Shown in pieces: positions 16,015 to 50,968 of a stretch of DNA of 64,000 bases (positions are counted from its first letter, which is position 1; the number at the start of each line of letters is the position of its first letter). Both the position numbers and the translations under genes were made by a program. Where the stretch lies: positions 1-64,000 of the forward strand of contig NW_003112829.1 in NCBI RefSeq assembly GCF_000003605.2. The letters are read 5' to 3'. This DNA is from Saccoglossus kowalevskii. Taxonomy: Eukaryota; Hemichordata; Enteropneusta; Harrimaniidae. The notes beneath the pieces are model-generated. The model saw only the letters and a list, made by a program, of their open reading frames with translations, ran no database searches and was not told the origin of the DNA.

Positions 16015-16139
16015 TGTGATAACTTCGTATCTATATTTAGTACGCTAGATGTTCTTTTGTTAGTGGTCACATGACCACCTTTGAGTTTGTAATGGCGGCA
16101 AAGCTTGCCAAGTTGTAGTCTGCAGTTCCACAGAATAAA
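16015..16139 (+). other. 125-bp non-satellite insert, copy 1
   Basis: Unique sequence replaces the GGG of one monomer: left flank GTAGATAAC, right flank ACTGTAGCACG. Visible parts: a 7-bp inverted repeat GTGGTCA-CA-TGACCAC (16,063-16,078); ATGGCGGC opening an 8-codon plus-strand ORF, MAAKLAKL (16,092-16,118); a second inverted repeat GGCAA-AGC-TTGCC (16,097-16,109); and AATAAA (16,134-16,139). The TCACATGA core resembles E-box/M-box bHLH-Zip sites and ATGGCGGC resembles a YY1 site that often overlaps start codons, so a captured promoter/first-exon fragment is possible but unproven. No terminal inverted repeats or clear target duplication are seen. The left flank here has AAATATTGAC instead of AAATGTTGAC. 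Confidence 0.85.
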
Positions 16140-17200
16140 ACTGTAGCACGAACTGTACACTACTTTGACTAGTAGATAACGGGACTATAGTCCGAACTGT
16201 ACACAAATGTTGACAAGTGGATAACGGAACTGCAGCCCGAACTGTACACTACTTTGACTAGTAGATAACGGAACTGTAGCCCGAACTGTACACAAATGTT
16301 GACTAGTAGATAACGGGACTGTAGCACAAACTGTACACTACTTTGATTAGTAGATAACCGGACTGTAGCACAAACTGTACACTAATTTGACTAGTAGATA
16401 ACGGGACTGTAGCACAAACTGTACACTACTTTGACTAGTAGATACACGGACTGTAGCACAAACTGTACACTACTTTGACTAGTGGATAACGGGACTGTAG
16501 CCCGAACTGTACACTACTTTGACTAGTAGATCACCGGACTGTAGCACAAACTGTACACTACTTTGACTAGTAGATAACGGGACTGTAGCACAAACTGTAC
16601 ACTACTTTGACTAGTAGATAACGGGACTGTAGCACGAACTGTACACTACTTTGTCTAGTAGATAACGGGACTATAGTCCGAACTGTACACAAATGTTGAC
16701 AAGTTGATAACGGGACTGTAGCCCGAACTGTACACTACTTTGACTAGTAGATAATGGGACTGTAGCACAAACTGTACACTACTCTGACTAGTAGATAACG
16801 GGACTATAGCCCGAATTGTACACAAATGTTGACTAGTAGATAACGGGACTGTAGCCAGAACTGTACACTACTTTGACTTGTAGATAACGGGACTGTAGCC
16901 CGATCAGTAAACTACTTTGACTAGTAGATAACGGGACTATAGCCCGAATTGTACACAAATGTTGACTAGTAGATAACGGGACTGTAGCCCGAACTGTACA
17001 TTACTGTTGACTAGCAGTTAACGGGACTGTAGCCCGAACTGTAAACTACTTTGACGAGTAGATAGCGGGACTATAGCCCGAATTGTACACAAATGTTGAC
17101 TAGTATATAACGGAACTGCAGCCCGAACTGTACACTACTTTGACTAGTAGATAACGGGACTGTAGCCCGAACTGTACACAAATGTTGACTAGTAGATAAC

Positions 17201-17325
17201 TGTGATAACTTCGTATCTATATTTAGTACGCTAGATGTTCTTTTGTTAGTGGTCACATGACCACCTTTGAGTTTGTAATGGCGGCAAAGCTTGCCAAGTT
17301 GTAGTCTGCAGTTCCACAGAATAAA
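17201..17325 (+). other. 125-bp insert, copy 2
   Basis: Identical to copy 1 by eye, in the same orientation, with the same junctions and flank order (AAATGTTGACTAG left; GACTATAGTCC and GACAAGTGG right). Copies 1 and 2 lie 1,186 bp apart (27 monomer lengths would be 1,188), consistent with duplication of a block of monomers. Confidence 0.85.
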
Positions 17326-18300
17326 ACTGTAGCACGAACTGTACACTACTTTGACTAGTAGATAACGGGACTATAGTCCGAACTGAACACAAATGTTGAC
17401 AAGTGGATAACGGAACTGCAGCCCGAACTGTACACTACTTTGACTAGTAGATAACGGAACTGTAGCCCGAACTGTACACAAATGTTGACTAGTAGATAAC
17501 GGGACTGTAGCACAAACTGTACACTACTTTGACTAGTAGATACACGGACTGTAGCACAAACTGTACACTACTTTGACTAGTGGATAACGGGACTGTAGCC
17601 CGAACTGTACACTACTTTGACTAGTAGATCACCGGACTGTAGCACAAACTGTACACTACTTTGACTAGTAGATAACGGGACTGTAGCACAAACTGTACAC
17701 TACTTTGACTAGTAGATAACGGGACTGTAGCACGAACTGTACACTACTTTGATTAGTAGATAACGGGACTGTAGCACAAACTGTACACTACTTCGACTAA
17801 TAGATAACGGGACTGTAGCACAAACTGTGCACTACTTTGACTAGTAGATAAACGGACTGTAGCACAAACTGTACACTACTTTGACTAGTGGATAACGGGA
17901 CGGTAGCCCGAACTGTACTCTACTTTGACTAGTAGATAACGGGACTGTAGCACAAACTGTACACTACTTTGACTAGTAGATAACGGGACTGTAGCCCGAA
18001 TTGTACACTACTTTGACAAGTATATAACGGGACTGTAGACCGAACTGTACACAATGTTGACTAGTATATAACGGTACTGTAGCACAAACTGTATACTACT
18101 TTGATTATAGATAACCGGACTGTAACACTAGTGTACACTACTTTGACTAGTAGATAACGGGGCTGTAGCACAAACTGTGCACTACTTTGACTGGCAGATA
18201 AACGGACTGTACACTACTTGGACTATTACATAACGGTACTGTAACACAAACTGTACACTACTTTGACTACTAGATTAACGGGAGTATAGCCCCGAACTGT

Positions 18301-20330
18301 ACACTACTTTGAATATAAGATAACGGGACTGTACCCCGAACTGTACACTACTTGAAATATTTGATAACGGGGCGGTAGCCCGAACTGTACACTACTTTGA
18401 ATAGTAGGAAAACGGAGATTGTAGCCCGAAATGTACACTACTTTGAATAGTAGATAACGTGACTGTAGCCCGAACTGTACACTACTTTGAATAGTAGATA
18501 ACGGAACTGTAGCCCGAACTGTACAATACTTTGAATAGTAGATAACAGGACTGTAGCCCGAACTGTACACTACTTTGAATAGTAGATAACGGGACTGTAG
18601 CCCGATCTGTACACTACTTTGAATAGTAGATAACGGGACTGTAGCCCGAACTGTACACTACTTTAAATAGTAGATAAAGGGACTGTAGCACGAACTGTAC
18701 ACTACTTCGAATAGTAGATAACGGGACTGTAGCCCGAACTGTAAACTACTTTGAATACTACGTAACGGGACTGTAGCCCGAACTGTACATTAATATTGAC
18801 TAGTAGATAACGGGACTGTAGCCCGAACTGTACACTACTTTGAATAGTAGATAACGGGACTGTTGCCCGAACTGTACACTACTTTGAATAGTAGATAACG
18901 GGACTATAGCCCGAACTGTACACTACTTTAAATAGTAGATAAAGGGACTGTAGCACGAACTGTACAATACTTCGAATAGTAGATAACGGGACTGTAGCCC
19001 GAACTGTACACTACTTTGAATAGAAGATAACGGGACTGTAGCCCGAACTGTACACTACTTTGAATAGTAGATAACGGGACTGTAGCCCGAACTGTACACT
19101 ACTTTGAATAGTAGATAACGGGACTGTAGCCCGAACTGTACACTACTTTGAATAGTAGATAACGGGACTGTAGCCCGAACTGTACACTACTTTGAATAGT
19201 AGATAACGGGACTGTAGCCCGAACTGTACACTACTTTGAATAGTAGATAACAGGACTGTAGCCCGAACTGTACACTACTTTGAATAGTACATAACGGGAC
19301 TATTGCCAGAACTGTACACTACTTTGACTAGTAGATAACGGGACTGTAGCCCGAACTGTACACTAATGTTGACTAGTAGATAACGGGACGGTAGCCTATA
19401 CTGTACAATACTTTGAATAGTAGATAACGGGACTGTAGCCCGAACTATACACTACTTTGAATAGTAGATAACGGGACTGTAGCCCGAACTGTACACTACT
19501 TTGAATAGTAGATAACGGGACTGTAGCCCGAACTGTATACTACTTTGTATAGTAGATAACGGGACTGTAGCCCGAACTGTACAATACTTTGAATAGTAGA
19601 TAACGGGACTGTAGCACGAACTGTACACTACTTTGAATAGTAGATAACGGGACTGCAGCCCGAACTGAACACTACTTTGACTAGTAGACAACGGGACTGT
19701 AGCCCGAACTGTACACTACTTTGAATAGTAGATAACGGGACTGTAGCCCTAACTGTACACTACTTTGACTAGTAGATAACGGGACTGTAGCCCGAACTGT
19801 ACACTACTTTGAATAGTAGATAACGGGATTGTAGCCCGAACTGTACACTACTTTGAATAGTAGGTAGCGGGACTGTAGCCCGATCTGTACACTACGTTGA
19901 ATAGTAGATAACGGGACTGTAGCCCGAACTGTACACTACTTTAAATAGTAGATAAAGGGACTGTAGCACGAACTGTACACTACTTCGAATAGTAGATAAC
20001 GGGACTGTAGCCCGAACTGTACACTACTTTGAATAGTAGATAACGGGACTGTAGCCCGAACTGTACACTACTTTAAATAGTAGATAAAGGGACTGTAGCC
20101 CGAACTGTACACTACTTTGACTACGAGATAACGGGACTGGAGCCCGAATTGTACACAAATGTTGAATAGTAGATAACGGGACTGTAGCCCAAATTGTACA
20201 CTACTTTGACTACTAGATAACCGGACAGTAGCCCAAACTGTACACTACTTTGAATAGTAGATAACGGGACTGTAGCCTGAACTGTACACTACTTTGACGA
20301 GAGATAAAGGGACTGTAGTCCGAACTGTAC
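18301..20330 (+). repeat. Consensus-rich monomers
   Basis: Mostly GAATAGTAG consensus, with AAATAGTAGATAAAGGG/CTACTTCG monomers at about 18,660, 18,930 and 19,940 and a GAATACTACGTAACGGG variant at 18,752. The 18,740-19,460 stretch resembles 60,510-61,290, including GACTATTGCCAG and GTACAT(A/C)AC, so it is a distant duplicate. At 18,407 a GGAAAACGGAGATTG monomer contains extra bases. Confidence 0.8.
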
Positions 20331-21944
20331 ACTACTTTGACTAGTAGATACGGGACTACAGCGCAAGCTGTACACTACTTTGACGAGTAGATAACGGGAC
20401 TGTAGCCCCCAACTGTACACTACTTTGACTAGTAGACAACGGGACTGTAGCCCGAACTGTACACTACTTTGAATAGTAGATAACGGGACTGTAGCCCTAA
20501 CTGTACACTACTTTGAAGAGTAGATAACGAGACTGTAGCCCGAACTGTACACTAATGTTGACTAGTAGATAACGGGACGGTAGCCTATACTGTACAATAC
20601 TTTGAATAGTAGATAACGGGACTGTAGCCCGAACTGTACACTACTTTGAAAAGTAGATAACGGGACTATAGCCCGAACTGTACACTACTTTGAATAGTAG
20701 ATAACGGGACCGTAGCCCGAACTGTACGCTACTTTGAATAGTAGATAACGGGACTGTAGCCCGAACTGTACACTACTTTGAATAGTAGATAACGGGACCG
20801 TAGCCCGAACTGTACGCTACTTTGAATAGTAGATAACGGGACTGTAGCCCGAACTGTACAATACTTTGAATAGTAGATAACGGGACTGTAGCCCGAACTG
20901 TACACTACTTTGACGAGTAGATAACGGGACGGTAGCCTATACTGTACAATACTTTGAATAGTAGATAACGGGACTGTAGCCCTAACTGTACACTACTTTG
21001 ACTTGTAGATAACGGGACTGTAGCCCGAATTGTAGACTACTTTGACTTGTAGATAACGGGACTGTAGCCCGAATTGTAGACTACTTTGACTCGTAGATAA
21101 CGGGACTATAGCCCGAACTGTACACTACTTTGACTAGTAGATAACGGGACTGTAGCCCGAACTGTACACTACTTTGAATAGTAGAAACGGGACTGTAGCC
21201 CGAACTGTACACTACTTTGACGAGTAGATAACGGGACTGTGGCCCGAACTGTACCCTACTTTGAATAGTAGATAACGGGACTGTAGCCCGAACTGTACAC
21301 AATTTTGACTACTAGATAACGGGACTCTAGCCCGAACTGTACACTACTTTGACGAGTAGATAACGGAACTGTAGCCCGAACTGTACATTACTTTGAATAG
21401 TAGATAACGAGACTGTAGCCCGAACTGTACACTACTTTGACTAGTAGATAACGGGACTGTAGCCCGAACTGTACACTACTTTGACTAGTAGAAAACGGGA
21501 CTATAGCACGAACTGTACGCTACTTTGACGAGTAGATAACGGGACTGTAGCCCGAACTGTACACTACTTTGACCAGTAGACAACGGGACTGCAGCCCGAA
21601 CTGTACACTACTTTGAATAGCAGATAACGGGACTGTACCCCTAACTGTACACTACTTTGAAGAGTAGATAACGGGACTGTAGCCCGAACTGTACACTAAT
21701 GTTGACTAGTAGATAACGGGACGGTAGCCTATACTGTACAATACTTTGACTAGTAGATAACGGGACTGTAGCCCGAACTGTACACTACTTTGACTAGTAG
21801 AATAACGAGAACTGTAGCCCGAACTTGTACACTACTTTGACTAGTAGATAACCGGGAACTGTAGCACAAACTGTACACTACTTTGACTAGTAAATAACGG
21901 GACTGTAGCACGAACTGTAAACTACTATGACTAGTAGATAACGG
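20331..21944 (+). repeat. GACGAG/GACTTGTAG mixed segment
   Basis: Contains an imperfect palindrome relative, TACAGCGCAAGCTGTA (about 20,357-20,372, 6-bp arms). Then comes the GAAGAGTAGATAACGAG / GACGGTAGCCTATAC order, GAATTGTAGAC monomers and GTAGAAACGGG. The 20,990-21,720 portion closely matches 55,040-55,770 and 61,800-62,530. Single-base insertions cluster at about 21,800-21,860. Confidence 0.8.
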
Positions 21945-23461
21945 GACTGTAGCCCGAACTGTACCCTACTTTGAATAGTAGATAACGGGACTGTAGCCCT
22001 AACTGTACACGACTTTGACTAGTAGATAACGAGACAGTAGCCCGAACTGTACACTAATGTTGACTAGTAGATAACGGGACGGTAGCCTATACTGTACAAT
22101 ACTTTGAATAGTAGATAACGGGACTGTAGCCCGATCTGTACACTACTTTGAAAAGTAGATAACGGGACTGTAGCCCGAACTGTACATACTTTGAAGAGTA
22201 GATAACGGGACTGTAGCCCGAACTGTACACTACTTTGAATAGTAGATAACGGGACTGTAGCCCGAACTGTACACTACTTTGAATAGTAGATAACGCGACT
22301 GTAGCCCGAACTGTACGCTACTTTGAATAGTAGATAACGGGACTGTAGCCCGAACTGTACGCTACTTTGAATAGTAGATAACGGGACTGTAGCCCGAACT
22401 GTACACTACTTTGAATAGTAGATAACGGGACTGTAGCCCGATCTGTACACTGCTTTGAATAGTAGATAACGGGACTGTAGCCCAAACTGTACACTACTTT
22501 AAATAGTAGATAAAGGGACTGTAGCACGAACTGTACACTACTTCGAATAGTAGATAACGGGACTGTAGCCCGAACTGTACACTACTTTGAATAGTGGATA
22601 ACGGGACTGTAGCCCGAACTGTACACCACTTTAAATAGTAGATAAAGGGACTGTAGCCCGAATTGTACACTACTTTGACTACGAGATAACGGGACTGTAG
22701 CCCGAGTTGTACACAAATGTTGAATAGTAGATAACGGGACTGTAGCGCAAATTATACACTACTTTGACTACTAGATAACCGGACAGTAGCCCAAACTGTA
22801 CACTACTTTAACTAGTAGATACCGGGACTCTAGCCCGAACTGCACACTACTATTGACTAGTCGATAAAGGGACTGTTTCCCGAACTGCACACTACTATTG
22901 ACTAGTAGATAACGGGACTCTAGCCCGAACTGCACACTACTATTGACTAGTAGATAACGGGACTGTAGCGCGAACTGCACACTACTATTGACTAGTCGAT
23001 AAAGGGACTGTTTCTCGAACTGTACACTACTGTTGGCTAGTCGATAAAGGGACTGTAGCCCGAACTGCACACTACTTTGACTAGTAGATAACGGGACGGT
23101 AGCCTATACAGCACAATACTTTGAATAGTAGATAACGGGACTATAGCCCTAACTGTACACTACTTTGACTAGTAGATAACGGGACTATAGACCGAACTGT
23201 ACACTACTTTGACTAGTAGATAACGGGACTGTAGCCAGAACTGTACACTACTTTGACTTGTTGATAACGGGACTGTAGCCCGAATTGTAGACTACTTTGA
23301 CTCGCAGATAACGGGACTGTAGCCCGAACTGTACACTACTTTGAATAGTAGAAACGGGACTGTAGCCCGAACTGTACACTACTTTGACGAGTAGATAACG
23401 GGACTGTAGCCCGAACTGTACCCTACTTTGAATAGTAGATAACGGGACTGTAGCCCGAACT
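21945..23461 (+). repeat. Duplicate of the 10.95-12.50 kb segment
   Basis: Markers fall at a constant +11,002 from the left copy (GTACGCTAC pair 11,316/22,318; G-block 11,769/22,771), then +10,958 after one monomer was lost near 23,310. GTACCCTAC at about 21,960 marks the left boundary: upstream sequences differ. The near identity implies a recent event. Confidence 0.85.
22766..23077 (+). repeat. G-block 9
   Basis: Matches G-block 5 by eye, including GATACCGGG, and is followed by GACGGTAGCCTATACAGC. Confidence 0.85.
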
Positions 23462-24720
23462 GGAGGCAATTTTGACTACTAGATAACGGGACGCTAGCCC
23501 GAACTGTACACTACTTTGACGAGTAGATAACGGAACTGTAGCCCGAACTGTACATTACTTTGAATAGTAGATAACGGGACTGTAGCCCGAACTGTACACT
23601 ACTTTGAATAGTAGATAAAGGGACTGTAGCCCGAACTGTACACTACTTTGTCTAGTGGATAACGGGACTATAGACCGAACTGTACACTAATGTTGACTAG
23701 TAGATAACGGGACTATAGCCAGAACTGTACACTACATTGACTAGTAGACAACGTGACTGTAGCCCGAACTGTACACTACTTTGACGAGTAGATAACGGAA
23801 CTGTAGCCCGAACTGTAGCCCGAACTGTACATTACTTTGAATAGTAGATAACGGGACTGTAGCCCGAACTGTACACTACTTTGACTAGTAGATAACGGGA
23901 CTATAGACCGAACTGTACACTACTTTGACTAGTAGATAACGGGACTGTAGCCCGAACTGTACACTACTTTGACTAGTAGATAACGGGACTATAGCACGAA
24001 CTGTACACTACTTTGACGAGTATATAACGGGACTGTAGCCCGAACTGTACACTACTTTGACTAGTAGACAACGGGACTGTAGCCCGAACTGTACCCTACT
24101 TTGAATAGTAGATAACGGGACTGTAGCCCTAACTGTACACTACTTTGACTAGTAGATAACGAGACAGTAGCCCGAACTGTACACTAATGTTGACTAGTAG
24201 ATAACGGGACGGTAGCCTATACTGTACAATACTTTGAATAGTAGATAACGGGACTGTAGCCCGATCTGTACACTACTTTGAAAAGTAGATAACGGGACTG
24301 TAGCCCGAACTGTACATACTTTGAAGAGTAGATAACGGGACTGTAGCCCGAACTGTACACTACTTTGAATAGTAGATAACGGGACTGTAGCCCGAACTGT
24401 ACACTACTTTGAATAGTAGATAACGCGACTGTAGCCCGAACTGTACGCTACTTTGAATAGTAGATAACGGGACTGTAGCCCGAACTGTACACTACTTTGA
24501 ATAGTAGATAACGGGACTGTAGCCCGAACTGTACACTACTTTGAATAGTAGATAACGGGACTGTAGCCCGAACTGTAAACTACTTTGAATAGTAGATAAC
24601 GGGACTGTAGCCCGAACTGTACACTACTTTGAATAGTAGATAACGGGACTGTAGCCCGAACTGTACACTACTTTGAATAGTAGATAACGGGACTGTAGCC
24701 CAAATTGTACACTACTTTGA
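23462..24720 (+). repeat. Duplicate of the 10.34-11.3 kb segment, then consensus
   Basis: Starts at the fourth GGAGGCAATTTT monomer and repeats the 2,163-bp unit order to GCGACTGTAG (24,424). It carries a private 12-bp expansion at about 23,800-23,830, where ACTGTAGCCCGA is doubled. After 24,440 consensus monomers follow instead of the GCCCGATCTG run. Confidence 0.8.
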
Positions 24721-24725
24721 ATAGT

Positions 24726-24910
24726 ACATAACCGGACTATTGCCCAAACTGTACACTACTTTAACTAGTAGATAACGGGACTGTAACCCGAACTGCACAC
24801 TACTATTGACTAGTCGATAAAGGGACTGTTTCCCGAACTGTACAATACTATTGACTAGTAGATAACGGGACTCTACCCCGAACTGCACACTACTATTGAC
24901 TAGTAAATAA
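24726..24910 (+). repeat. G-block 10 (partial)
   Basis: Shortened G-block with GACTGTAACCC and GTACAATAC changes and a CTCTACCCC variant. It lacks the right-hand GTTGGCTAG edge and passes into GACTTGTAG monomers. Confidence 0.75.
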
Positions 24911-26744
24911 CGGGACTGTAGCCCGAACTGTACACTACTTTGACTTGTAGATAACGGGACTGTACCCCGAATTGTAGACTACTTTGACTTGTAGATAACG
25001 GGACTGTAGCCCTAATTGTAGACTACTTTGACTAGTAGATAACGGGACTGTAGCCCGAACTGTACACTACTTTGAATAGTAGAAACGGGACTGTAGCCCG
25101 AACTGTACACTACTTTGACGAGTAGATAAACGGGACTGTAGCCCGAACTGTACCCTACTTTGAATAGTAGATAACGGGACTGTAGCCCGAACTGTACGCA
25201 ATTTTGACTACTAGATAACGGGACTCTAGCCCGAACTGTACACTACTTTGACGAGTAGATAACGGAACTGTAGCCCGAACTGTACATTACTTTGAATAGT
25301 AGATAACGAGACTGTAGCCCGAACTGTACACTACTTTGACTAGTAGATAACGGGACTGTAGCCCGAACTGTACACTACTTTGACTAGTAGATAACGGGAC
25401 TATAGCACGAACTGTACGCTACTTTGACGAGTAGATAACGGGACTGTAGCCCGAACTGTACACTACTTTGACTAGTAGACAACGGGACTGCAGCCCGAAC
25501 TGTACACTACTTTGAAGAGTAGATAACGGGACTGTAGCCCGAACTGTACACTAATGTTGACTAGTAGATAACGGGACGGTAGCCTATACTGTACAATACT
25601 TTGAATAGTAGATAACGGGACTGTAGCCCGAACTGTACACTACTTTGACTAGTAGATAACGGGACTGTAGCCCGAACTGTACACTACTTTGAATAGTAGA
25701 AACGGGACTGTAGCCCGAACTGTACACTACTTTGACGAGTAGATAACGGGACTGTAGCCCGAACTGTACCCTACTTTGAATAGTAGATAACGGGACTGTA
25801 GCCCGAACTGTACGCAATTTTGACTACTAGATAACGTGACTGTAGCCCGAACTGTACACTACTTTGACGAGTAGATAACGGGACTGTAGCCCGAACTGTA
25901 CACTACTTTGACTAGTAGACAACGGGACTGTAGCCCGAACTGTACACTACTTTGAATAGTAGATAACGGGACTGTAGCCCTAACTGTACACTACTTTGAA
26001 GAGTAGATAACGAGACTTTAGCCCGAACTGTACACTAATGTTGACTAGAAGATAACGGGACGGTAGCCTATACTGTACAATACTTTGAATAGTAGATAAC
26101 GGGACTGTAGCCCGAACTGTACACTACTTTGAAAAGTAGATAACGGGACTGTAGCCCGAACTGTACATACTTTGAAGAGTAGATAACGGGACTGTAGCCC
26201 GAACTGTACACTACTTTGACGAGTAGATAACGGGACTGTAGCCCGAACTGTACGCTACTTTGAATAGTAGATAACGGGACTGTAGCCCGAACTGTACAAT
26301 ACTTTGAATAGTAGATAACGGGACTGTAGCCCGCACTGTACACTACTTTGACGAGTAGATAACGGGACGGTAGCCTATACTGTACACTACTTTGAATAGT
26401 AGATAACGGGACTGTAGCCCGAACTGTACACTACTTTGAATAGTAGATAACGGGACTGTAGCCCGAACTGTACACTACTTTGAATAGTAGATAACGGGAC
26501 TGTAGCCCGAACTGTAAACTACTTTGAATAGTAGATAACGGGACTGTAGCCCGAACTGTACACTACTTTGAATAGTAGATAACGGGACTGTAGCCCGAAC
26601 TGTACACTACTTTGACTACTAGATAACGGGACTGTAGCCCGAACTGTACACTACTTTGAATAGTACATAACGGGACTGTTGCCCGATCTGTACACCACTT
26701 TGACTAGTAGATAACGGGACTGTAGCCCGAACTGTACACTACTG
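24911..26744 (+). repeat. GACTTGTAG/GACGAG segment and GAAGAG order
   Basis: GACTTGTAG, GTAGAAACGGG, GTACGCAATTTT and GTACGCTACTTTGACGAG monomers, then at 25,505-26,380 the GAAGAGTAG / GACGGTAGCCTATAC order shared with 8.6, 9.7, 55.7 and 62.4 kb. Consensus monomers fill 26,390-26,690. One extra A at about 25,128 (GATAAACGGG). Confidence 0.8.
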
Positions 26745-26970
26745 TTGACTATAAAATAACGGAATGGTACCCTATACTGTACCTTACTTTGAATATTAAA
26801 TAACGGAACGGTACCCCAAACTGTACACTACTTTGATTATTAAATAACGGAATTGTACCCCAAACGGTACATTACTTTGATTATAAAATAACGGAACGGT
26901 ACCCCGAACTGTACACTACTTTGACTAGAAAATAACGGAACTGTACCCCGAACTGTCACCTACTTTGAAT
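26745..26970 (+). repeat. Diverged GGTACC-bearing monomer cluster
   Basis: About five monomers share ATTAAATAACGGAA or ATAAAATAACGGAA first cores and GGTACCC in place of TGTAGCC. Three GGTACC hexamers lie at 26,766, 26,810 and 26,898. This form is seen nowhere else in the window. The shared changes show local amplification of a private variant, embedded between ordinary monomers. Confidence 0.85.
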
Positions 26971-27275
26971 AGTACATAACGGGACTGTATCCCGAACTGT
27001 ACACTACTTTGACTACTAGATAACGGGACTGTAGCCCGAAGCTGTACACTACTTTGACTACTAGATAACGGGACTGTAGCCCGATCTGTACACTACTTTG
27101 AATAGTAGATAACGGTACTGTAGCCCGAACTGTACACTACTTTAAATAGTAGATAAAGGGACTGTAGCACGAACTGTACACTACTTCGAATAGTAGACAA
27201 CGGGACGGTAGCCCGAACTGTACACTACTTTGAATAGTAGATAAAGGGACTGTAGCCCGAATTGTACACTACTTT
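26971..27275 (+). repeat. Consensus monomers before G-block 11
   Basis: GACTACTAGATAAC and GCCCGATCTG monomers, then the AAATAGTAGATAAAGGG/CTACTTCG type, matching the usual run-up to a G-block. One extra base makes GAAGCTGTAC at about 27,040. Confidence 0.75.
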
Positions 27276-27497
27276 GACTACTAGATAACCGGACAGTAGC
27301 CCAAACTGTACACTACTTTAACTAGTAGATAACGGGACTCTAGCCCGAACTGCACACTACTATTGACTAGTCGATAAAGGGACTGTTTCCCGAACTGCAC
27401 ACTACTATTGACTAGTCGATAAAGGGACTGTTTCTCGAACTGTGCACTACTGTTGGCTAGTCGATAAAGGGACTGTAACCCGAACTGCACACTACTT
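27276..27497 (+). repeat. G-block 11 (two monomers shorter)
   Basis: Lacks the central CTCTAGCCC and GTAGCGCGAAC monomers of G-block 5, so two GTCGATAAAGGGACTGTTT monomers stand adjacent. This is a simple 88-bp contraction by unequal exchange between the two GTCGATAAAG monomers. Confidence 0.85.
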
Positions 27498-38188: not shown

Positions 38189-38204
38189 TACAGCTCGAGC
38201 TGTA
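38189..38204. repeat. 16-bp palindrome (P-block 5, left)
   Basis: Exact match after AACGGGAC. Confidence 0.95.
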
Positions 38205-38805: not shown

Positions 38806-39138
38806 AACTACAACTGACTAGTAGATAACGGGACTGTAGCCCGAACTGTACACTACTTTGAATAGTAGATAACGGGACTGTAGCCCGAACTGTACACTAC
38901 TTTGAATAGTAGATAACGGGACTGTATCCCGAACTGTACACTACTTTGAATAGTAGATAACGGGACTGTAGCCCGAACTGTACACTGCTTTGAATAGTAG
39001 ATAAAGGGACTGTAGCACGAACTGTACACTACTTTGAATAGTAGATAACGGGACTGTAGCCCGAACTGTACACTACTTTGAATAGTAGATAACGGGACTG
39101 TAGCCCGAACTGTACACAAATGTTGACTAGTAGATAAC

Positions 39139-39263
39139 TGTGATAACTTCGTATCTATATTTAGTACGCTAGATGTTCTTTTGTTAGTGGTCACATGACC
39201 ACCTTTGAGTTTGTAATGGCGGCAAAGCTTGCCAAGTTGTAGTCTGCAGTTCCACAGAATAAA
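39139..39263 (+). other. 125-bp insert, copy 5
   Basis: Full length, exactly 2,223 bp after copy 4, the cleanest measure of the higher-order period. The right flank reads GCACGTACTG, a substitution shared only with copy 7, which links those two copies. Confidence 0.85.
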
Positions 39264-40986
39264 ACTGTAGCACGTACTGTACACTACTTTGACTAGTAGA
39301 TAACGGGACTATAGTCCGAACTGTACACAAATGTTGACAAGTGGATAACGGAACTGCAGCCCGAACTGTACACTACTTTGACTAGTAGATAACGGAACTG
39401 TAGCCCGAACTGTACACAAATGTTGACTAGTAGATAACGGGACTGTAGCACAAACTGTACACTACTTTGATCAGTAGATAACGGGACTGTAGCCCGAACT
39501 GTACACTACTTTGAATAGTAGATAACGGGACTGTAGCCCGAACTGTACACTACTTTGAATAGTAGATAACGGGACTGTAGTCCGAACTGTACACTACTTT
39601 GAATAGTAGATAACGGGACTGTAGCCCGAACTGTACACTGCTTTGAATAGTAGATAAAGGGACTGTAGCACGAACTGTACACTACTTTGAATAGTAGATA
39701 ACGGGACTGTAGCCCGAACTGTACACTACTTTGTATAGTAGATAACGGGACTGTAGCCCGAACTGTACACTACTTTGAATAGTAGATAACGGGACTGTAG
39801 ACCGAACTGTACACTACTTTGAATAGTAGATAAAGGGACTGTAGCCCGAACTGTACACTACTTCGAATAGTAGATAACGGGACTGTAGCCCGAACTGAAC
39901 ACTACTTTGACGAGTAGTTAACGGGACTGTAGTCCGAACTGTACACTACTTTGAAGAGTAGATAACGGGACTGTAGCCCGAACTGTAAACTACTTTGAAT
40001 AGTAGATAGCGGGACTGTAGCCCAAACTGAACACTACTTTGACGAGTAGTTAACGGGACTGTAGTCCGAACTGTACACTACTTTGAATAGTAGATAGCGG
40101 GACTGTAGCTCGAACTGTACACTACTTTTAACTAGTAGATAACGGGACTGTAGCCCGAACTGTACATTACTTTGAATAGTAGAAACGGGACTGTAGCCCG
40201 AACTGTACACTACTTTGAATAGTAGATAACGGGACTGTAGACCGAACAGTACACTACTTTGACTAGTAGATAACGGGACTGTAGCCCGAACTGTACACTA
40301 CTTTGAATAGTAGAAACGGGACTGTAGCCCGAACTGTACACTACTTTGACGAGTAGATAACGGGACTGTAGCCCGAACTGTACGCAATTTTGACTACTAG
40401 ATAACGGGACTCTAGCCCGAACTGTACACTACTTTGACGAGTAGATAACGGAACTGTAGCCCGAACTGTACATTACTTTGAATAGTAGATAACGGGACTG
40501 TAGCCCGAACTGTACACTACTTTGAACAGTAGAAACGGGACTGTAGCCCGAACTGTACACTACTTTGACGAGCAGATAAAGGGACTGTAGCCCGAACTGC
40601 ACCCTACTTTGAATAGTAGATAACGGGACTGTAGCCCGAACTGTACGCAATTTTGACTACTAGATAACGGGACTCTAGCCCGAACTGTACACTACTTTGA
40701 CGAGTAGATAACGGAACTGTAGCCCGAACTGTACATTACTTTGAATAGTAGATAACGGGACTGTAGCCCGAACTGTACACTACTTTGACTAGTAGATAAC
40801 GGGACTATAGACCGAACTGTACACTACTTTGACTAGTAGATAACGGGACTGTAGCCCGAACTGTACACTACTTTGACTAGTAGATAACGGGACTATAGCA
40901 CGAACTGTACACTACTTTGACGAGTATATAACGGGACTGTAGCCCGAACTGTACACTACTTTGACTAGTAGACAACGGGACTGTAG
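39264..40986 (+). repeat. Insert right flank and transition to GACGAG monomers
   Basis: The segment 39,300-40,030, including the private GATCAGTAG monomer, recurs at 45,520-46,230 (offset 6,220). From about 40,100 the type changes to GTAGAAACGGG, GTACGCAATTTT and GACGAG monomers like 9-10.9 kb. Confidence 0.8.
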
Positions 40987-42180
40987 CCCGAACTGTACCC
41001 TACTTTGAATAGTAGATAACGGGACTGTAGCCCTAACTGTACACTACTTTGACTAGTAGATAACGAGACAGTAGCCCGAACTGTACACTAATGTTGACTA
41101 GTAGATAACGGGACGGTAGCCTATACTGTACAATACTTTGAATAGTAGATAACGGGACTGTAGCCCGATCTGTACACTACTTTGAAAAGTAGATAACGGG
41201 ACTGTAGCCCGAACTGTACATACTTTGAAGAGTAGATAACGGGACTGTAGCCCGAACTGTACACTACTTTGAATAGTAGATAACGGGACTGTAGCCCGAA
41301 CTGTACACTTCTTTGAATAGTAGATAACGCGACTGTAGCCCGAACTGTACGCTACTTTGAATAGTAGATAACGGGACTGTAGCCCGAACTGTACGCTACT
41401 TTGAATAGTAGATAACGGGACTGTAGCCCGAACTGTACACTACTTTGAATAGTAGATAACGGGACTGTAGCCCGATCTGTACACTGCTTTGAATAGTAGA
41501 TAACGGGACTGTAGCCCAAACTGTACACTACTTTAAATAGTAGATAAAGGGACTGTAGCACGAACTGTACACTACTTCGAATAGTAGATAACGGGACTGT
41601 AGCCCGAACTGTACACTACTTTGAATAGTAGATAACGGGACTGTAGCCCGAACTGTACACCACTTTAAATAGTAGATAAAGGGACTGTAGCCCGAATTGT
41701 ACACTACTTTGACTACGAGATAACGGGACTGTAGCCCGAGTTGTACACAAATGTTGAATAGTAGATAAAGGGACTGTAGCGCAAATTGTACACTACTTTG
41801 ACTACTAGATAACCGGACAGTAGCCCAAACTGTACACTACTTTAACTAGTAGATACCGGGACTCTAGCCCGAACTGCACACTACTATTGACTAGTCGATA
41901 AAGGGACTGTTTCCCGAACTGCACACTACTATTGACTAGTAGATAACGGGACTCTAGCCCGAACTGCACACTACTATTGACTAGTAGATAACGGGACTGT
42001 AGCGCGAACTGCACACTACTATTGACTAGTCGATAAAGGGACTGTTTCTCGAACTGTACACTACTGTTGGCTAGTCGATAAAGGGACTGTAGCCCGAACT
42101 GCACACTACTTTGACTAGTAGATAACGGGACGGTAGCCTATACAGCACAATACTTTGAATAGTAGATAACGGGACTATAG
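40987..42180 (+). repeat. 1,194-bp tandem duplication, left copy
   Basis: Begins at GTACCCTAC and runs through GAGACAGTAGCCC, GACGGTAGCCTATAC, GCGACTGTAG, the GTACGCTAC pair and G-block 12 to GACTATAG. It is homologous to 10,950-12,140 and 21,945-23,140. It shows CACTTCTTTG at about 41,310, shared with the right copy. Confidence 0.85.
41800..42111 (+). repeat. G-block 12
   Basis: Same lineage as G-blocks 5 and 9 (GATACCGGG). Upstream monomer has GATAAAGGGACTGTAGCGC instead of GATAACGGG. Confidence 0.85.
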
Positions 42181-42780
42181 CCCGAACTGTACCCTACTTT
42201 GAATAGTAGATAACGGGACTGTAGCCCTAACTGTACACTACTTTGACTAGTAGATAACGAGACAGTAGCCCGAACTGTACACTAATGTTGACTAGTAGAT
42301 AACGGGACGGTAGCCTATACTGTACAATACTTTGAATAGTAGATAACGGGACTGTAGCCCGATCTGTACACTACTTTGAAAAGTAGATAACGGGACTGTA
42401 GCCCGAACTGTACATACTTTGAAGAGTAGATAACGGGACTGTAGCCCGAACTGTACACTACTTTGAATAGTAGATAACGGGACTGTAGCCCGAACTGTAC
42501 ACTTCTTTGAATAGTAGATAACGCGACTGTAGCCCGAACTGTACGCTACTTTGAATAGTAGATAACGGGACTGTAGCCCGAACTGTACGCTACTTTGAAT
42601 AGTAGATAACGGGACTGTAGCCCGAACTGTACACTACTTTGAATAGTAGATAACGGGACTGTAGCCCGATCTGTACACTGCTTTGAATAGTAGATAACGG
42701 GACTGTAGCTCAAACTGTCCACTACTTTAAATAGTAGATAAAGGGACTGTAGCACGAACTGTACACTACTTTGAATAGTA
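42181..42780 (+). repeat. 1,194-bp tandem duplication, right (partial) copy
   Basis: Restarts at GTACCCTAC exactly 1,194 bp later and reproduces the left copy as far as the AAATAGTAGATAAAGGG monomer, then leaves it before the G-block. The junction is inside a monomer with no break in the 44-bp phase. Confidence 0.85.
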
Positions 42781-43735
42781 GATTAACGGGACTGTAGCCC
42801 GAACTGTACACTACTTTGAATAGTAGATAACGGGACTGTAGCCCGAACTGTACACTACTTGAATAGTTAGATAACGGGGACTGTAGACCGAACTGTACAC
42901 TACTTTGAATAGTAGATAAAAGGGACTGTAGCCCCGAAACTGTACACTACTTTGAATAGTAGATAAACGGGACTGTAGCCCGAACTGTACACTACTTTGA
43001 ATAGTAGATAACGGGACTGTAGCCCCGAACTGTACACTGCTTTGAATAGTAGATAAAGGGACTGTAGCACGAACTGTACACTACTTTGAATAGTAGATAA
43101 CGGGACTGTAGCCCGAACTGTACACTACTTTGAATAGTAGATAACGGGACTGTAGCCCGAACTGTACACTACTTTGAATAGTAGATAACGGGACTGTAGA
43201 CCGAACTGTACACTACTTTGAATAGTAGATAAAGCGACTGTAGCCCGAACTGTACACTACTTCGAATAGTAGATAACGGGACTATAGACCGAACTGTACA
43301 CTACTTTGACTAGTAGATAACGGGACTGTAGCCCGAACTGTACACTACTTCAAATAGTAGATAACGGGAGTGTAGCCCGAACTGTACACTACTTTGAATA
43401 GTAGATAACGGGACTGTAGCCCGAACTGTACACTACTTTAAATAGTAGATAACGGGACTGTAGCCCGAACTGTACACTACTTTGACTAGTAAACAACGGG
43501 ACTGTAGCCCGAACTGTACACTACTTTGAATAGTAGATAACGGGACTGTAGCCCTAACTGTACACTACTTTGACTAGTAGATAACGGGACTGTAGCCCGA
43601 ACTGTACAATACTTTGAATAGTAGATAACGGGACTGTAGCCCGAACTGTACACTACTTTGAATAGTAGATAACGGGACTGTAGCCCGAACTGTACACTAC
43701 TTTGAATAGTAGATAACGGGACTGTAGCCCGAACT
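42781..43735 (+). repeat. Consensus monomers with clustered single-base insertions
   Basis: Between 42,781 and 43,030 several monomers carry one-base changes in short runs: GATTAACGGG, ATAGTTAGATAACGGGGAC, GATAAAAGGG, GCCCCGAAAC, GATAAACGGG, GCCCCGAAC. From 43,040 the sequence is clean, with GATAAAGCGAC, CTTCAAATAG and GACTAGTAAACAACGG markers matching 34.1-34.3 and 31.1-31.8 kb. Confidence 0.8.
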
Positions 43736-44600
43736 GTCCACTACTTTAAATAGTAGATAAAGAGACTGTACCACGAACTGTACACTACTTCGAATAGTAG
43801 ATAACGGGACTGTAGCCCGAACTGTACACTACTTTGAATAGTAGATAACGGGACTGTAGCGCGAACTGTACACTACTTTAAATAGTAGATAAAGGGACTG
43901 TAGGACGAACAGTACACTACTTTGAATAGTAGATAACAGAACTGTAGCCCGAAAAGCACACAACTTTGAATAGTAGATAACGGGACTGTAGCCTGAACTG
44001 TACACTACTTTGAATAGTAGATAACGGGACTGTAGCCCGAACTGTACACTACTTTGAATAGTAGATAAAGGGACTGTAGCACGAACTGTACACTACTTTG
44101 AATAGTAGATAACGGGACTGTAGCCCGAACTGTACACTACTTTGAATAGTAGATAACGGGACTGTAGACCGAACTGTACACTACTTTGAATAGTAGATAA
44201 AGGGACTGTAGCCCGAAATGTACACTACTTTGAATAGTAGATAAAGGGACTGTAGCCTGAACTGTACATTACTTTGAATAGTAGATAACGGGACTGTAGC
44301 CCGAACTGTACACTACTTTGACTAGTAGATAATGGGACTGTAGCCCGAACTGTACACTACTTTGACTAGTAGATAACGGGACTATTGCCCGAACTGTACA
44401 CTACTTTGACGAGTCGATAACGGGACTGTAGCCCGAACTGTACACTACTTTGACGAGTAGATAACGGGACTGTAGCCCGAACTGTACACTACTTTGAATA
44501 GTAGATAACGGGACTGTAGACCGAACTGTACACTACTTTGAATAGTAGATAAAGGGACTGTAGCCCGAACTGTACACTACTTCGAATAGTAGATAACGGG
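43736..44600 (+). repeat. Duplicate of the 29.66-30.48 kb segment
   Basis: GACGAGTCGATAAC at 44,408 matches 30,306 (offset 14,102). GGACGAACAG at 43,903 matches 29,845 (offset 14,058). The 44-bp difference is one extra monomer here near 44,270, which also occurs in the 51.9-kb copy. Confidence 0.85.
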
Positions 44601-46260
44601 ACTGTAGCCCGAATTGTAGACTACTTTGACTCGCAGATAACGGGACTATAGCCCGAACTGTACACTACTTTGACTCGTAGATAACGGGACTGTAGCCCGA
44701 ACTGTACACTACTTTGAATAGTAGATAACGGGACTGTAGCCCGAACTGTAGGCAATTTTGACTACTAGATAACGGGACTCTAGCCCGAACTGTACACTAC
44801 GTTGACGAGTAGATAACGGAACTGTAGCCCGAACTGTACATTACTTTGAATAGTAGATAACGGGACTGTAGCCCGAACTGTACACTACTTTGAATAGTAG
44901 ATAAAGGGACTGTAGCCCGAACTGTACACTACTTTGACTAGTGGATAACGGGACTATAGTCCGAACTGTACACCAATGTTGACTAGTAGACAACGGGACT
45001 ATAGCCAGAACTGTACACTACATTGACTAGTAGACAACGTGACTGTAGCCCGAAGTGTACACTAATGTTGACTAGTAGACAACGGGACTATAGCACAAAC
45101 TGTACACTACTTTGACTAGTAGATAACGGGACTGTAGCCCGAACTGTAGACTACTTTGACTAGTAGATAACGGGACTATAGCCCGAACTGTACACTACTT
45201 TGACGAGTAGATAACGGGACTGTAGCCCGAACTGCACACTAATGTTGACTAGTAGATAACTGGACTATAGCCCAAACTGTACACTACTTTGACTAGTAGA
45301 TAACGGGACTATAGCCCAAACTGTACACTACTTTGACTAGTAGATAACGGGACTGTAGCCCGAACTCTACACTTCTTTGACTAGTAGATAACGGGACTAT
45401 AGGCCGAACTGTACACTACTTTGACGAGGAGATAACGGGACTGTAGCCCGAACTGTACACTGCTTTGACGAGTAGATAACGGGACTGTAGCCCAAACTGT
45501 ACACTACTTTGACTAGTAGATAACGGGACTATAGTCCGAACTGTACACAAATGTTGACAAGTGGATAACGGAACTGCAGCCCGAACTGTACACTACTTTG
45601 ACTAGTAGATAACGGAACTGTAGCCCGAACTGTACACAAATGTTGACTAGTAGATAACGGGACTGTAGCACAAACTGTACACTACTTTGATCAGTAGATA
45701 ACGGGACTGTAGCCCGAACTGTACACTACTTTGAATAGTAGATAACGGGACTGTAGCCCGAACTGTACACTACTTTGAATAGTAGATAACGGGACTGTAG
45801 TCCGAACTGTACACTACTTTGAATAGTAGATAACGGGACTGTAGCCCGAACTGTACACTGCTTTGAATAGTAGATAAAGGGACTGTAGCACGAACTGTAC
45901 ACTACTTTGAATAGTAGATAACGGGACTGTAGCCCGAACTGTACACTACTTTGTATAGTAGATAACGGGACTGTAGCCCGAACTGTACACTACTTTGAAT
46001 AGTAGATAACGGGACTGTAGACCGAACTGTACACTACTTTGAATAGTAGATAAAGGGACTGTAGCCCGAACTGTACACTACTTCGAATAGTAGATAACGG
46101 GACTGTAGCCCGAACTGAACACTACTTTGACGAGTAGTTAACGGGACTGTAGTCCGAACTGTACACTACTTTGAAGAGTAGATAACGGGACTGTAGCCCG
46201 AACTGTAAACTACTTTGAATAGTAGATAGCGGGACTGTAGCCCGAACTGTACACTACTTT
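44601..46260 (+). repeat. GACTAGTAG segment (28-kb type) then 39-kb type
   Basis: The stretch 44,610-45,500 matches 27.7-28.5 kb; 45,510-46,230 matches 39.3-40.0 kb. At the switch near 45,500, a monomer of the GCCCAAACTG type runs into GACTATAGTCC, which elsewhere follows an insert. The insert is absent here, so this is a recombinant junction. Confidence 0.8.
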
Positions 46261-46367
46261 GAATAGTAGATAACGGGACTGTAGCCCGAACTGTACACTA
46301 CTTTGACGAGAAGATAACGGGACTGTAGTCCGAACTGTACACTACTTTGACTAGTAGATAACGTTAC

Positions 46368-46383
46368 TACAGCTCGAGCTGTA
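46368..46383. repeat. 16-bp palindrome, unpaired
   Basis: Exact match after AACGTTAC (right-hand type); 349 bp before insert copy 6. No left-hand partner lies upstream, so the P-block is cut. Confidence 0.95.
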
Positions 46384-46716
46384 AACTACAACTGACTAGT
46401 AGATAACGGGACTGTAGCCCGAACTGTACACTACTTTGAATAGTAGATAACGGGACTGAAGCCCGAACTGTACACTACTTTGAATAGTAGATAACGGGAC
46501 TGTAGCCCGAACTGTACACTACTTTGAATAGTAGATAACGGGACTGTAGCCCGAACTGTACACTGCTTTGAATAGTAGATAAAGGGACTGTAGCACGAAC
46601 TGTACACTACTTTGAATAGTAGATAACGGGACTGTAGCCCGAACTGTATACTACTTTGAATAGTAGATAACGGGACTGTAGCCCGAACTGTACACAAATG
46701 TTGACTAGTAGATAAC

Positions 46717-46841
46717 TGTGATAACTTCGTATCTATATTTAGTACGCTAGATGTTCTTTTGTTAGTGGTCACATGACCACCTTTGAGTTTGTAATGGCGG
46801 CAAAGCTTGCCAATTTGTAGTCTGCAGTTCCACAGAATAAA
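46717..46841 (+). other. 125-bp insert, copy 6
   Basis: Full length, 349 bp after the single palindrome at 46,368. It carries GCCAATTTGTAG (G to T) near 46,813, shared only with copy 9. Only the right half of a P-block precedes it. Confidence 0.85.
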
Positions 46842-48337
46842 ACTGTAGCACGAACTGTACACTACTTTGACTAGTAGATAACGGGACTATAGTCCGAACT
46901 GTACACAAATGTTGACAAGTGGATAACGGAACTGCAGCCCGAACTGTACACTACTTTGACGAGTAGATAACGGAACTGTAGCCCGAACTGTACACAAATG
47001 TTGACTAGTAGATAACGGGACTGTAGCACAAACTGTACACTACTTTGATTAGTAGATAACGGGACTGTAGCCCGAATTGTACACTACTTTGAATAGTAGA
47101 TAACGGGACTGTAGCCCGTACTGTACACTACTTTGAATAGTAGATAACGGGACTGTAGCCCGAACTGTACACTACTTTGAATAGTAGATAACGGGACTGT
47201 AGCCCGAACTGTACACTGCTTTGAATAGTAGATAAAGGGACTGTAGCACGAACTGTACACTACTTTGAATAGTAGATGACGGGACTGTAGCCCGAACTGT
47301 ACACTACTTTGAATAGTAGATAACGGGACTGTTGCCCGAACTGTACACTACTTTGAATAGTAGATAACGGGACTGTAGACCGAACTGTACACTACTTTGA
47401 ATAGTAGATAAAGGGACTGTAGCCCGAACTGTACACTACTTCGAATAGTAGATAACGGGACTATAGACCGAACTGTACACTACTTTGACTAGTAGATAAC
47501 GGGACTGTAGCCCGAACTATACACTACTTCAAATAGTAGATAACGGGAGTGTAGCCCGAACTGTACACTACTTTGAATAGTAGATAACGGGACTGTAGCC
47601 CGAACTGTACACTACTTTAAATAGTAGATAACGGGACTGTAGCTCGAACTGTACACTACTTTGACTAGTAAACAACGGGACTGTAGCCCGAACTGTACAC
47701 TACTTTGAATAGTAGATAACGGGACTGTAGCCCGAACTGTACACTACTTCGAATAGTAGATAACGGGACTATAGACCGAACTGTACACTACTTTGACTAG
47801 TAGATAACGGGACTGTAGCCCGAACTGTACACTACTTCAAATAGTAGATAACGGGAGTGTAGCCCGAACTGTACACTACTTTGAATAGTAGATAACGGGA
47901 CTGTAGCCCGAACTGTACACTACTTTAAATAGTAGATAACGGGACTGTAGCCCGAACTGTACACTACTTTGACTAGTAAATAACGGGACTGTAGCCCGAA
48001 CTGTACACTACTTTGAATAGTAGATAACGGGACTGTAGCCCTAACTGTACACTACTTTGACTAGTAGATAACGGGACTGTAGCCCGAACTGTACAATACT
48101 TTGAATAGTAGATAACGGGACTGTAGCCCGAACTGTACACTACTTTGAATAGTAGATAACGGGACTGTAGCCCGAACTGTACACTGCTTTGAATAGTAGA
48201 TAAAGGGACTGTAGCACGAACTGTACACTACTTTGAATAGTAGATAACGGGACTGTAGCCCGAACTGTACACTACTTTGAATAGTAGATAACGGGACTGT
48301 AGCCCGAACTGTACACAAATGTTGACTAGTAGATAAC
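46842..48337 (+). repeat. Consensus, CTTCAAATAG and GACTAGTAAA monomers
   Basis: The stretch 47,090-47,740 follows the 30.7-31.6 kb order, including GTAGATGACGGG and GGGAGTGTAG. The run at 47,440-47,720 is repeated at 47,745-48,020. No P-block lies between insert copies 6 and 7. Confidence 0.8.
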
Positions 48338-48462
48338 TGTGATAACTTCGTATCTATATTTAGTACGCTAGATGTTCTTTTGTTAGTGGTCACATGACCA
48401 CCTTTGAGTTTGTAATGGCGGCAAAGCTTGCCAAGTTGTAGTCTGCAGTTCCACAGAATAAA
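48338..48462 (+). other. 125-bp insert, copy 7
   Basis: Full length, with the GCACGTACTG right flank of copy 5. The normal AAATGTTGAC/GACAAGTGG right flank is lost: 60 bp downstream it joins a consensus plus GGACGAACAG (48,601) run, leading to a P-block. Confidence 0.85.
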
Positions 48463-48816
48463 ACTGTAGCACGTACTGTACACTACTTTGACTAGTAGAT
48501 AACGGGACTATAGTCCGAACTGTACACTACTTTGAATAGTAGATAACGGGACTGTAGCCCGAACTGTACACTACTTTAAATAGTAGATAAAGGGACTGTA
48601 GGACGAACAGTACACTACTTTGAATAGTAGATAACAGAACGGTAGCCCGAAAAGCACACAACTTTGAATAGTAGATAACGGGACTGTAGCCCAAACTGTA
48701 CACTACTTTGAATAGTAGATAACGGGACTGTAGCCCGAACTGTACACTACTTTGACGAGAAGATAACGGGACTGTAGTCCGAACTGTACACTACTTTGAC
48801 TAGTAGATAACGGGAC

Positions 48817-48832
48817 TACAGCTCGAGCTGTA
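48817..48832. repeat. 16-bp palindrome (P-block 6, left)
   Basis: Exact match after AACGGGAC. The monomer that follows it is the sequence found inverted at 50,021-50,047. Confidence 0.95.
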
Positions 48833-49416
48833 AACTACAACTGACTAGTAGATAACGGGACTGTAGCCCCACCTGTACACTACTTTGACTGTAGCCCGAA
48901 CTGTACACTACTTTGAATAGTAGATAACGGGACTGTAGCCCGAACTGTACACTACTATGACGAGTAGATAAAGGGACTGTAGCCCGAACTGTACACTACT
49001 TTGACTAGTAGATAACGGGACTATAGACCGAACTGTACACTACTTTGACTAGTAGATAACGGGACTGTAGCCCGAACTGTACACTACTTTGACTTGTAGA
49101 TAACGGGACTGTAGCCCGAACTGTACACTACTTTGACTAGTAGATAACGGGACTGTAGCCCGAACTGTACACTACTTTGAAAAGTAGAAACGGGACTGTA
49201 GCCCAAACTGAACACTACTTTGACGAGTAGTTAACGGGACTGTAGTCCGAACTGTACACTACTTTGAATAGTAGATAGCGGGACTGTAGCCCGAACTGTA
49301 CAATACTTTGAATAGTAGATAACGGGACTGTAGCCCGAACTGTACACTACTTTGACGAGAAGATAACGGGACTGTAGTCCGAACTGTACACTACTTTGAC
49401 TAGTAGATAACGTTAC

Positions 49417-49432
49417 TACAGCTCGAGCTGTA
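49417..49432. repeat. 16-bp palindrome (P-block 6, right)
   Basis: Exact match after AACGTTAC; about 600 bp before the 50,021 breakpoint. Confidence 0.95.
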
Positions 49433-50020
49433 AACTACAACTGACTAGTAGATAACGGGACTGTAGCCCGAACTGTACACTACTTTGAATAGTAGATAAC
49501 GGGACTGTAGCCCGAACTGTACACTACTTTGATTAGTAGATAACGGGACTGTAGCACAAACTGTACACTACTTCGACTAGTAGATAACGGGACTGTAGCC
49601 CGAACTGTACACTACTTTAAATAGTAGATAACGGGACTGTAGCCCGAACTGTACACTACTTTGACTAGTAAACAACGGGACTGTAGCCCGAACTGTACAC
49701 TACTTTGAATAGTAGATAACGGGAATGTAGCCCTAACTGTACACTACTTTGACTAGTAGATAACGGGACTGTAGCCCGAACTGTACAATACTTTGAATAG
49801 TAGATAACGGGACTGTAGCCCGAACTGTACACTACTTTGAATAGTAGATAACGGGACTGTAGCCCGAACTGTACACTACTTTGAATAGTAGATAACGGGA
49901 CTGTAGCCCGAACAGTACACTACTTTGAATAGTAGATAACAGAACTGTAGCCCGAAAAGCACACAACTTTGAATAGTAGATAACGGGACTGTAGCCCGAA
50001 CTGTACACTACTTTGAATAG

Positions 50021-50047
50021 CAGGTGGGGCTACAGTCCCGTTATCTA
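50021..50047 (-). other. 27-bp inverted monomer fragment at a breakpoint
   Basis: The plus strand reads CAGGTGGGGCTACAG then TCCCGTTATCTA. This is the exact reverse complement of the P-block monomer TAGATAACGGGACTG-TAGCCCCACCTG found at about 34,558 and 48,848. It is the only orientation reversal I found. On the right it joins the middle of the 125-bp insert, sharing CTA (50,045-50,047) with both partners. On the left the array has a GAATAGCAG-like edge sharing CAG. Short inverted piece plus microhomology suggests template switching. Confidence 0.9.
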
Positions 50048-50139
50048 GATGTTCTTTTGTTAGTGGTCACATGACCACCTTTGAGTTTGTAATGGCGGCA
50101 AAGCTTGCCAAGTTGTAGTCTGCAGTTCCACAGAATAAA
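50045..50139 (+). other. 125-bp insert, copy 8 (5'-truncated)
   Basis: Retains the last 95 bp or so, including both inverted repeats, ATGGCGGC and AATAAA; the left 30 bp (GATAACTTCG to TAGTACG) are absent. The right flank is normal except CACTTCTTTG. Copy 9 with a full insert lies only 800 bp downstream. Confidence 0.9.
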
Positions 50140-50843
50140 ACTGTAGCACGAACTGTACACTTCTTTGACTAGTAGATAACGGGACTATAGTCCGAACTGT
50201 ACACAAATGTTGACAAGTGGATAACGGAACTGCAGCCCGAACTGTACACTACTTTGACTAGTAGATAACGGAACTGTAGCCCGAACTGTACACAAATGTT
50301 GACTAGTAGATAACGGGACTGTAGCACAAACTGTACACTACTTTGATTAGTAGATAACGGGACTGTAGCCCGAACTGTACACTACTTTGAATAGTAGATA
50401 ACGGGACTGTAGCCCGAACTGTACACTACTTTGACGAGAAGATAACGGGACTGTAGCCCGAACTGTACACTACTTTGAATAGTAGATAACGGGACTGTAG
50501 CCCGAACTGTACACTGCTTTGAATAGTAGATAACGGGACTGTAGCCCGAACTGTACACTACTTTGAATAGTAGATAACGGGACTGTAGCCCGAACTGTAC
50601 ACTACTTTGAATAGTAGATAACGGGACTGTAGCCCGAACTGTACACTACTTTGAATAGTAGATAACGGGACTGTAGCCCGAACTGTACACTGCTTTGAAT
50701 AGTAGATAAAGGGACTGTAGCACGAACTGTACACTACTTTGAATAGTAGATAACGGGACTGTAGCCCGAACTGTATACTACTTTGAATAGTAGATAACGG
50801 GACTGTAGCCCGAACTGTACACAAATGTTGACTAGTAGATAAC

Positions 50844-50968
50844 TGTGATAACTTCGTATCTATATTTAGTACGCTAGATGTTCTTTTGTTAGTGGTCACA
50901 TGACCACCTTTGAGTTTGTAATGGCGGCAAAGCTTGCCAATTTGTAGTCTGCAGTTCCACAGAATAAA
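50844..50968 (+). other. 125-bp insert, copy 9
   Basis: Full length, with the GCCAATTTGTAG substitution of copy 6. Its flanks (GACGAGTAGATAACGG, then GAATTGTACAC) also match copy 6, so 46.4-47.1 and 50.5-51.25 kb are sister segments. It is the rightmost insert in the window. Confidence 0.85.

Follow-up and report, generated by a model that had tools for sequence, protein, structure and literature searches.

How does a segment of DNA that does not derive from a satellite come to stand nine times inside the monomers of that satellite? The question is raised by the hemichordate Saccoglossus kowalevskii, in which a 125-bp insert recurs within the tandem array that fills the first 64,000 nucleotides of contig NW_003112829.1 (assembly GCF_000003605.2; hereafter, the window). 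Tandem Repeats Finder (TRF) reports a period of 44 with 1454.6 copies spanning positions 1-64000, and a hidden Markov model (HMM) consisting of the 44-bp monomer and a background state that captures non-monomer sequence, trained on the window itself, delineates 1408 full monomers in the whole 64 kb, 1137 of them 44 bp long. It assigns nine segments to the background, of which eight measure 125 bp and the ninth, at 50048-50139, 92 bp; direct matching places the start of the short one at 50045 (base 31 of the insert), with the last 95 bp kept. The nine coordinates given in an earlier note on this DNA are thus all correct, and its statement that the insert is the only non-monomer sequence in the 64 kb also holds in that the HMM found no further background segment, with the proviso that, by our estimate of the model penalties, foreign pieces shorter than about 20-30 bp would stay hidden. 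A 32-base probe from the insert, allowed up to three mismatches, recovers nine matches, all on the plus strand, against a shuffle expectation of 0.00 (mean of 100). We consider it probable that this non-satellite segment was inserted a single time into one monomer and thereafter spread passively through the copying of satellite segments.

The junctions carry much of the argument. The right junction is identical in all nine copies, as is the left one in the eight copies that possess it (the ninth lacks its left end). The left remnant of the interrupted monomer ends at monomer position 14 (GACTAGTAGATAAC) in the eight full copies and the right remnant resumes at position 18 (ACTGTAG...) in 9/9, such that the insert replaces the GGG of positions 15-17 and the repeat phase is retained, a combination that argues for a single insertion. 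The motif AAATGTTGACTAGTAGATAAC occurs 21 times, with seven occurrences leading into the insert and the remaining 14/14 continuing as GGGACT, and is altered by one base in the eighth full copy (16015). Two insert-free relatives of the interrupted monomer (Table 1) match the right flank of the insert at 149/160 bases from 15483 and at 148/160 bases from 16626, respectively.

The flanks add a second line of evidence. The earlier assertion that the copies have mostly the same flanking monomers is borne out on the right, where 200 bp are common to 8/9 copies; on the left the agreement extends over no more than about 55 bp (8/8), and farther out the copies fall into two classes. The monomer-type map places the copies at 16015 and 17201 within C/D-type satellite, in duplicates that adjoin one another and are each about 1.19 kb long (15631-16823 and 16817-18008, 96.4% identical). 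The copies at 33167, 36916, 39139, 46717, and 50844 instead lie in an island of about 390 bp, comprising about 60 bp of shared left flank, the insert, and about 205 bp of shared right flank, with a-type monomers beyond both ends; the copy at 48338 has the island-type left flank and a shortened right one. All but one of the 36 copy pairs (the exception being 48338/50045) fall within one alignable in-register block, and 21 of these 35 (16015/17201 and 20 among the other seven copies) show 94.7-98.7% identity over 510-3367 bp, the closest being 33167 and 50045 (778 bp, 98.7%). The single change within the insert, a G-to-T substitution, is common to the copies at 46717 and 50844; the variant GACGAG, found in the flank at right offset 119, is likewise confined to these two. 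Further, the right flank of the copy at 39139 recurs exactly, without the insert, at 45511-46110; this match is among the freshest duplications in the window and stops short of the insert, and the copied unit is therefore the satellite, with or without it. The truncated copy directly abuts an inverted monomer piece, of which 21 bases (50027-50047) match the reversed monomer and six (50021-50026) remain unmatched, with three shared bases (CTA) assignable to either side; this junction resembles microhomology-guided joining or template switching, or else a misassembly.

Table 1. Coordinates in the window of the satellite array, the insert copies, and associated features
Feature	Position	Strand	Basis or context
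Head-to-tail array of the 44-bp satellite monomer, most variants 43-45 bp	1..64000	+	TRF and HMM segmentation
125-bp insert, copy 1	16015..16139	+	C/D-type satellite on both sides
125-bp insert, copy 2	17201..17325	+	C/D-type on both sides
125-bp insert, copy 3	33167..33291	+	Island, a-type monomers next on both sides
125-bp insert, copy 4	36916..37040	+	Island like copy 3
125-bp insert, copy 5	39139..39263	+	Island like copy 3
125-bp insert, copy 6	46717..46841	+	Island like copy 3; G-to-T change present
125-bp insert, copy 7	48338..48462	+	Common right flank lasts 65 bp, then a-type monomers
Insert, copy 8, truncated (last 95 bp)	50045..50139	+	Direct match; HMM 50048-50139
125-bp insert, copy 9	50844..50968	+	Island like copy 3; G-to-T change present
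Right flank of copy 5 without insert	45511..46110	+	0/600 mismatches to 39291-39890
Inverted monomer piece	50021..50047	-	HMM; sole minus-strand stretch in 64 kb
Insert-free relative of interrupted monomer, similar right neighbor	15466..15509	+	GGG present before ACTGTAGCACG
Second insert-free relative of interrupted monomer, similar right neighbor	16609..16652	+	Reads GATAACGGGACTGTAGCACG; GGG present
72-bp repeat with 28-bp period	728-869, 34531-34672, 35925-36066, 38192-38333, 48820-48961		TRF

On these grounds we propose that 125 bp of non-satellite DNA would have been joined once into one 44-bp monomer with the loss of GGG, most likely as filler DNA captured during the repair of a break and perhaps within the C/D-type domain at about 15-18 kb. 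The insert would then have been a passive passenger, with unequal exchange or break-induced copying duplicating the satellite segments that bore it; one such event may have put the island of about 390 bp among a-type monomers, where further copying probably took place, and later breaks would have shortened one copy on its right flank and deprived another of its 5' end. The idea of one capture event spread by satellite copying, already advanced in the earlier note, is accordingly supported by the junctions, orientation, phase, and flanks. The higher-order amplification it invoked accounts for part of the distribution but not for the island in a second array type or for the two copies that were broken later. 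The C- and D-type monomers, of which the latter ends in ACAAATGTT, are abundant at about 13.2-18.2 kb; for most tiles of this domain the rest of the window contains 0-1 near-identical partners, and the domain may be older than the remaining array.

Several observations weigh against this account. The 14 pairs that oppose 16015/17201 to the other seven copies reach only 90.1-93.9% identity beyond the core, and random in-phase ungapped 200-bp stretches of the array average 60% identity with a 95th percentile of 93.5%, a yardstick that is rough in that indels break the phase; the common descent of these two copies with the others is shown by the core alone. The insert-free relatives barely exceed four other monomers tested (134-143/160), and an insert-free allele matching both flanks was not found in the window, the best candidate differing at 10/135 bases. 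In raw counts the five island copies vary at 1/125 sites of the insert versus 37/940 sites of the flanks (p=0.12; 320 bp to the left and 620 bp to the right, a range shortened because the ungapped comparison loses register farther out, with 51 sites in 375 bp on the left), and the pair 16015/17201 differs at 0/125 versus 30/900 sites (p=0.04; 400 and 500 bp counted to the left and right, out of 420 and 680); insert and flank divergence come out level only once the sites templated by other monomers, considered below, are set aside. Finally, AACTGT occurs at either end of the insert, in the manner of a target duplication.

The last point bears on the only rival with appreciable standing, namely that a transposable element, either small or cut short (for instance a SINE or the 3' end of a non-LTR element), landed in the array a single time and was afterwards multiplied along with it. 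This reading departs from the capture and passive spread of non-satellite DNA solely in the route by which the insert arrived, and we regard it as possible, though unlikely. The insert terminates in AATAAA, and such an end would suit the 3' end of a retroelement. The reading requires a target duplication of 5-6 bp (ACTGT or AACTGT) together with the loss of 5 bp from the left side; this additional deletion is needed because the monomer carries GGG ahead of ACTGT, and the left AACTGT accordingly lies outside its monomer context, GATAACTGTAGC having no match in the window. Moreover, all nine copies present in the window occupy one site, with no independent insertions seen, and the insert ends show neither a joining inverted repeat of at least 7 bp nor a poly-A stretch, although many short elements lack both. 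Nor did the insert find a match in Rfam, PDB, or Pfam, all of them poor tests for a short element: Rfam returned four matches on 15800-16400, all far below the gathering score, and one peptide (PDB) and four peptides (Pfam) from the six frames had none. In our judgement, filler DNA at a repaired break is about twice as likely as a short transposon remnant.

Other searches contributed little to the question of origin. Viral contigs held no exact match to a 34-mer of the monomer or a 20-mer of the insert, and prokaryotic genome contigs none to a monomer 25-mer or an insert 20-mer, in collections where no animal or plant host is expected. Distant BLAST searches gave five partial matches in phages, the best of which (E=0.04) falls mostly in the part of the query that is satellite flank, and one in plasmids, where an animal or plant host is likewise not expected (22% of the query, E=0.09). 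The literature text searched contained neither monomer nor insert strings. Further candidates were rejected. The insert is not a degenerate monomer, the local alignment score between the two being equalled in 885/1000 shuffles in forward and 349/1000 in reverse orientation; and an open frame of 41 codons on its minus strand meets chance expectation, estimated at about 14% per frame. The string ATAACTTCGTAT (16019-16030) corresponds to 12/13 bases of a loxP arm, the second arm of which is not seen, and we take this to be a coincidence.

Near-identical arrays are difficult to assemble, and assembly errors might hence account for some of the copies, or for the truncated one together with the inverted piece. 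The inverted piece does occur only once in the window, but the copies can be told apart by their flank classes and private variants, and we hold this explanation to be very improbable.

Slightly less probable still is selection on the insert, for instance as a protein-binding site or a promoter within the array. Such a role could be read from the single variable site (1/125) among the eight full copies, which is per base below the raw outer flanks in both comparisons given above, and from the presence of GTGGTCA-CA-TGACCAC, with a 7-bp inverted repeat, and of ATGGCGGC, putative elements that we presume to resemble E-box and YY1 sites. The earlier note had likewise contrasted a nearly invariant insert with varying monomers and taken this as a possible sign of recent spread or of constraint. 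The contrast is real only beyond the shared core, outside of which flank divergence climbs; inside it, 2/55 sites on the left and 4/200 on the right vary, and these 6/255 do not differ significantly from the insert (Fisher p=0.43; the left set of eight copies omits 50045 and the right one 48338). At 33 of the 37 variable sites of the island flanks, both alleles occur elsewhere in the array (as 17-mers). This exceeds a background of 1410/2820 (50%) for random substitutions (p=5 × 10–7) and of 545/940 (58%) for transitions only (p=4 × 10–5), a slightly lenient comparison in that the control asks for the substituted letter only and the observed count for both alleles. Thus, the variation of the outer flanks mostly looks like exchange between monomers, whereas the insert can exchange only with its own copies. 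With templated sites set aside, the islands retain four sites in 940 bp, which, corrected for the 50%, predict 1.06 per 125 bp as against one seen; for 16015/17201, seven sites in 900, with a correction of their own (791/2700), predict 1.38 as against none (P=0.25). In the core and untemplated comparisons, the changes accumulated by the insert are therefore compatible in number with those of its flanks, with the raw outer flanks remaining higher; the hint of constraint gains no support from these small counts, which give no firm sign of it and would be compatible with weak constraint. The folding of the insert is unremarkable (z=–1.42, with 20/200 shuffles equally good), and the truncated copy survives without the first 30 bp. 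The insert hence looks like an ordinary hitchhiker, and nothing in it points clearly to a separate function.

We give the same slender chance to the possibility that the insert itself promotes the duplication of its neighborhood as a hotspot of breakage or recombination. When the high-identity offsets of the window are ranked by frequency, 12 of the top 40, including the first four, are distances between inserts, and the mean near-identical stretch around pairs of inserts (729 bp) is equalled by only 2 of 19 control landmarks, which are insert-free and of similar copy number. However, the median stretch (524 bp) is matched by seven of the 19, and the 600-bp right flank of the copy at 39139 was duplicated exactly without any insert. 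In light of the landmark controls and this insert-free copy at 45511, neither offsets nor stretches are taken as evidence for a hotspot. The counts of near-identical partners do not decide the matter: tiles bearing the insert have 0-7 of at most 8, the window has a mean of 4.0 and a median of 3, and insert-free tiles have up to 66. The least probable reading sees in the insert a regulatory fragment, with the inverted TGACCAC site and ATGGCGGC, that was captured, binds a protein, and has been domesticated by the array; if true, it would make the surrounding satellite transcribed or prone to copying.

The proposed capture and passive spread of a non-satellite segment would be a further example of an already described kind of satellite insertion. 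In composite repeats, non-satellite pieces are amplified along with a tandem repeat; the present case is similar in that a non-repeat fragment has joined a repeated segment, but it occupies nine irregularly spaced places instead of forming a regular part of every unit. Satellite higher-order repeats of Meloidogyne chitwoodi and M. fallax, as described in the excerpted text, have monomer 2a inserted into 1d and 1c monomers (PMC3694981). As in our array, a sequence of possibly unrelated origin interrupts satellite monomers, the host monomer has lost a part, and the product is carried in homogenized higher-order units; the Meloidogyne insert, however, is itself a satellite monomer that replaces a segment of equivalent length, whereas the 125 bp of our insert took the place of 3 bp. 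In Meloidogyne the insertion site is marked by a conserved box (PMC3694981). For the higher-order arrays of human alpha-satellite, the excerpted portions of another study name saltatory change as one possible route and break repair with gene conversion as another, and list polymorphic transposons in these regions (PMC11062924). That satellite is a different one, unlike ours in monomer size and regularity, and those portions describe no comparable passenger. PMC5874043 was discarded as a precedent, as the 'inserted sequence' in its excerpted text denotes cloned inserts and is irrelevant.

As the insert can be distinguished from every monomer, it serves as a natural tracer of the movement of satellite segments. 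It reveals that segments move as blocks kept in register and pass from one array type to another, and that most of the variation is templated by other monomers. This is a useful worked example that leaves the picture of satellite evolution unchanged. Additionally, TRF lists a 72-bp repeat containing a 28-bp period, which is 16 bp shorter than the monomer, at five places in the window (Table 1), and this repeat is a further tracer of segmental copying.

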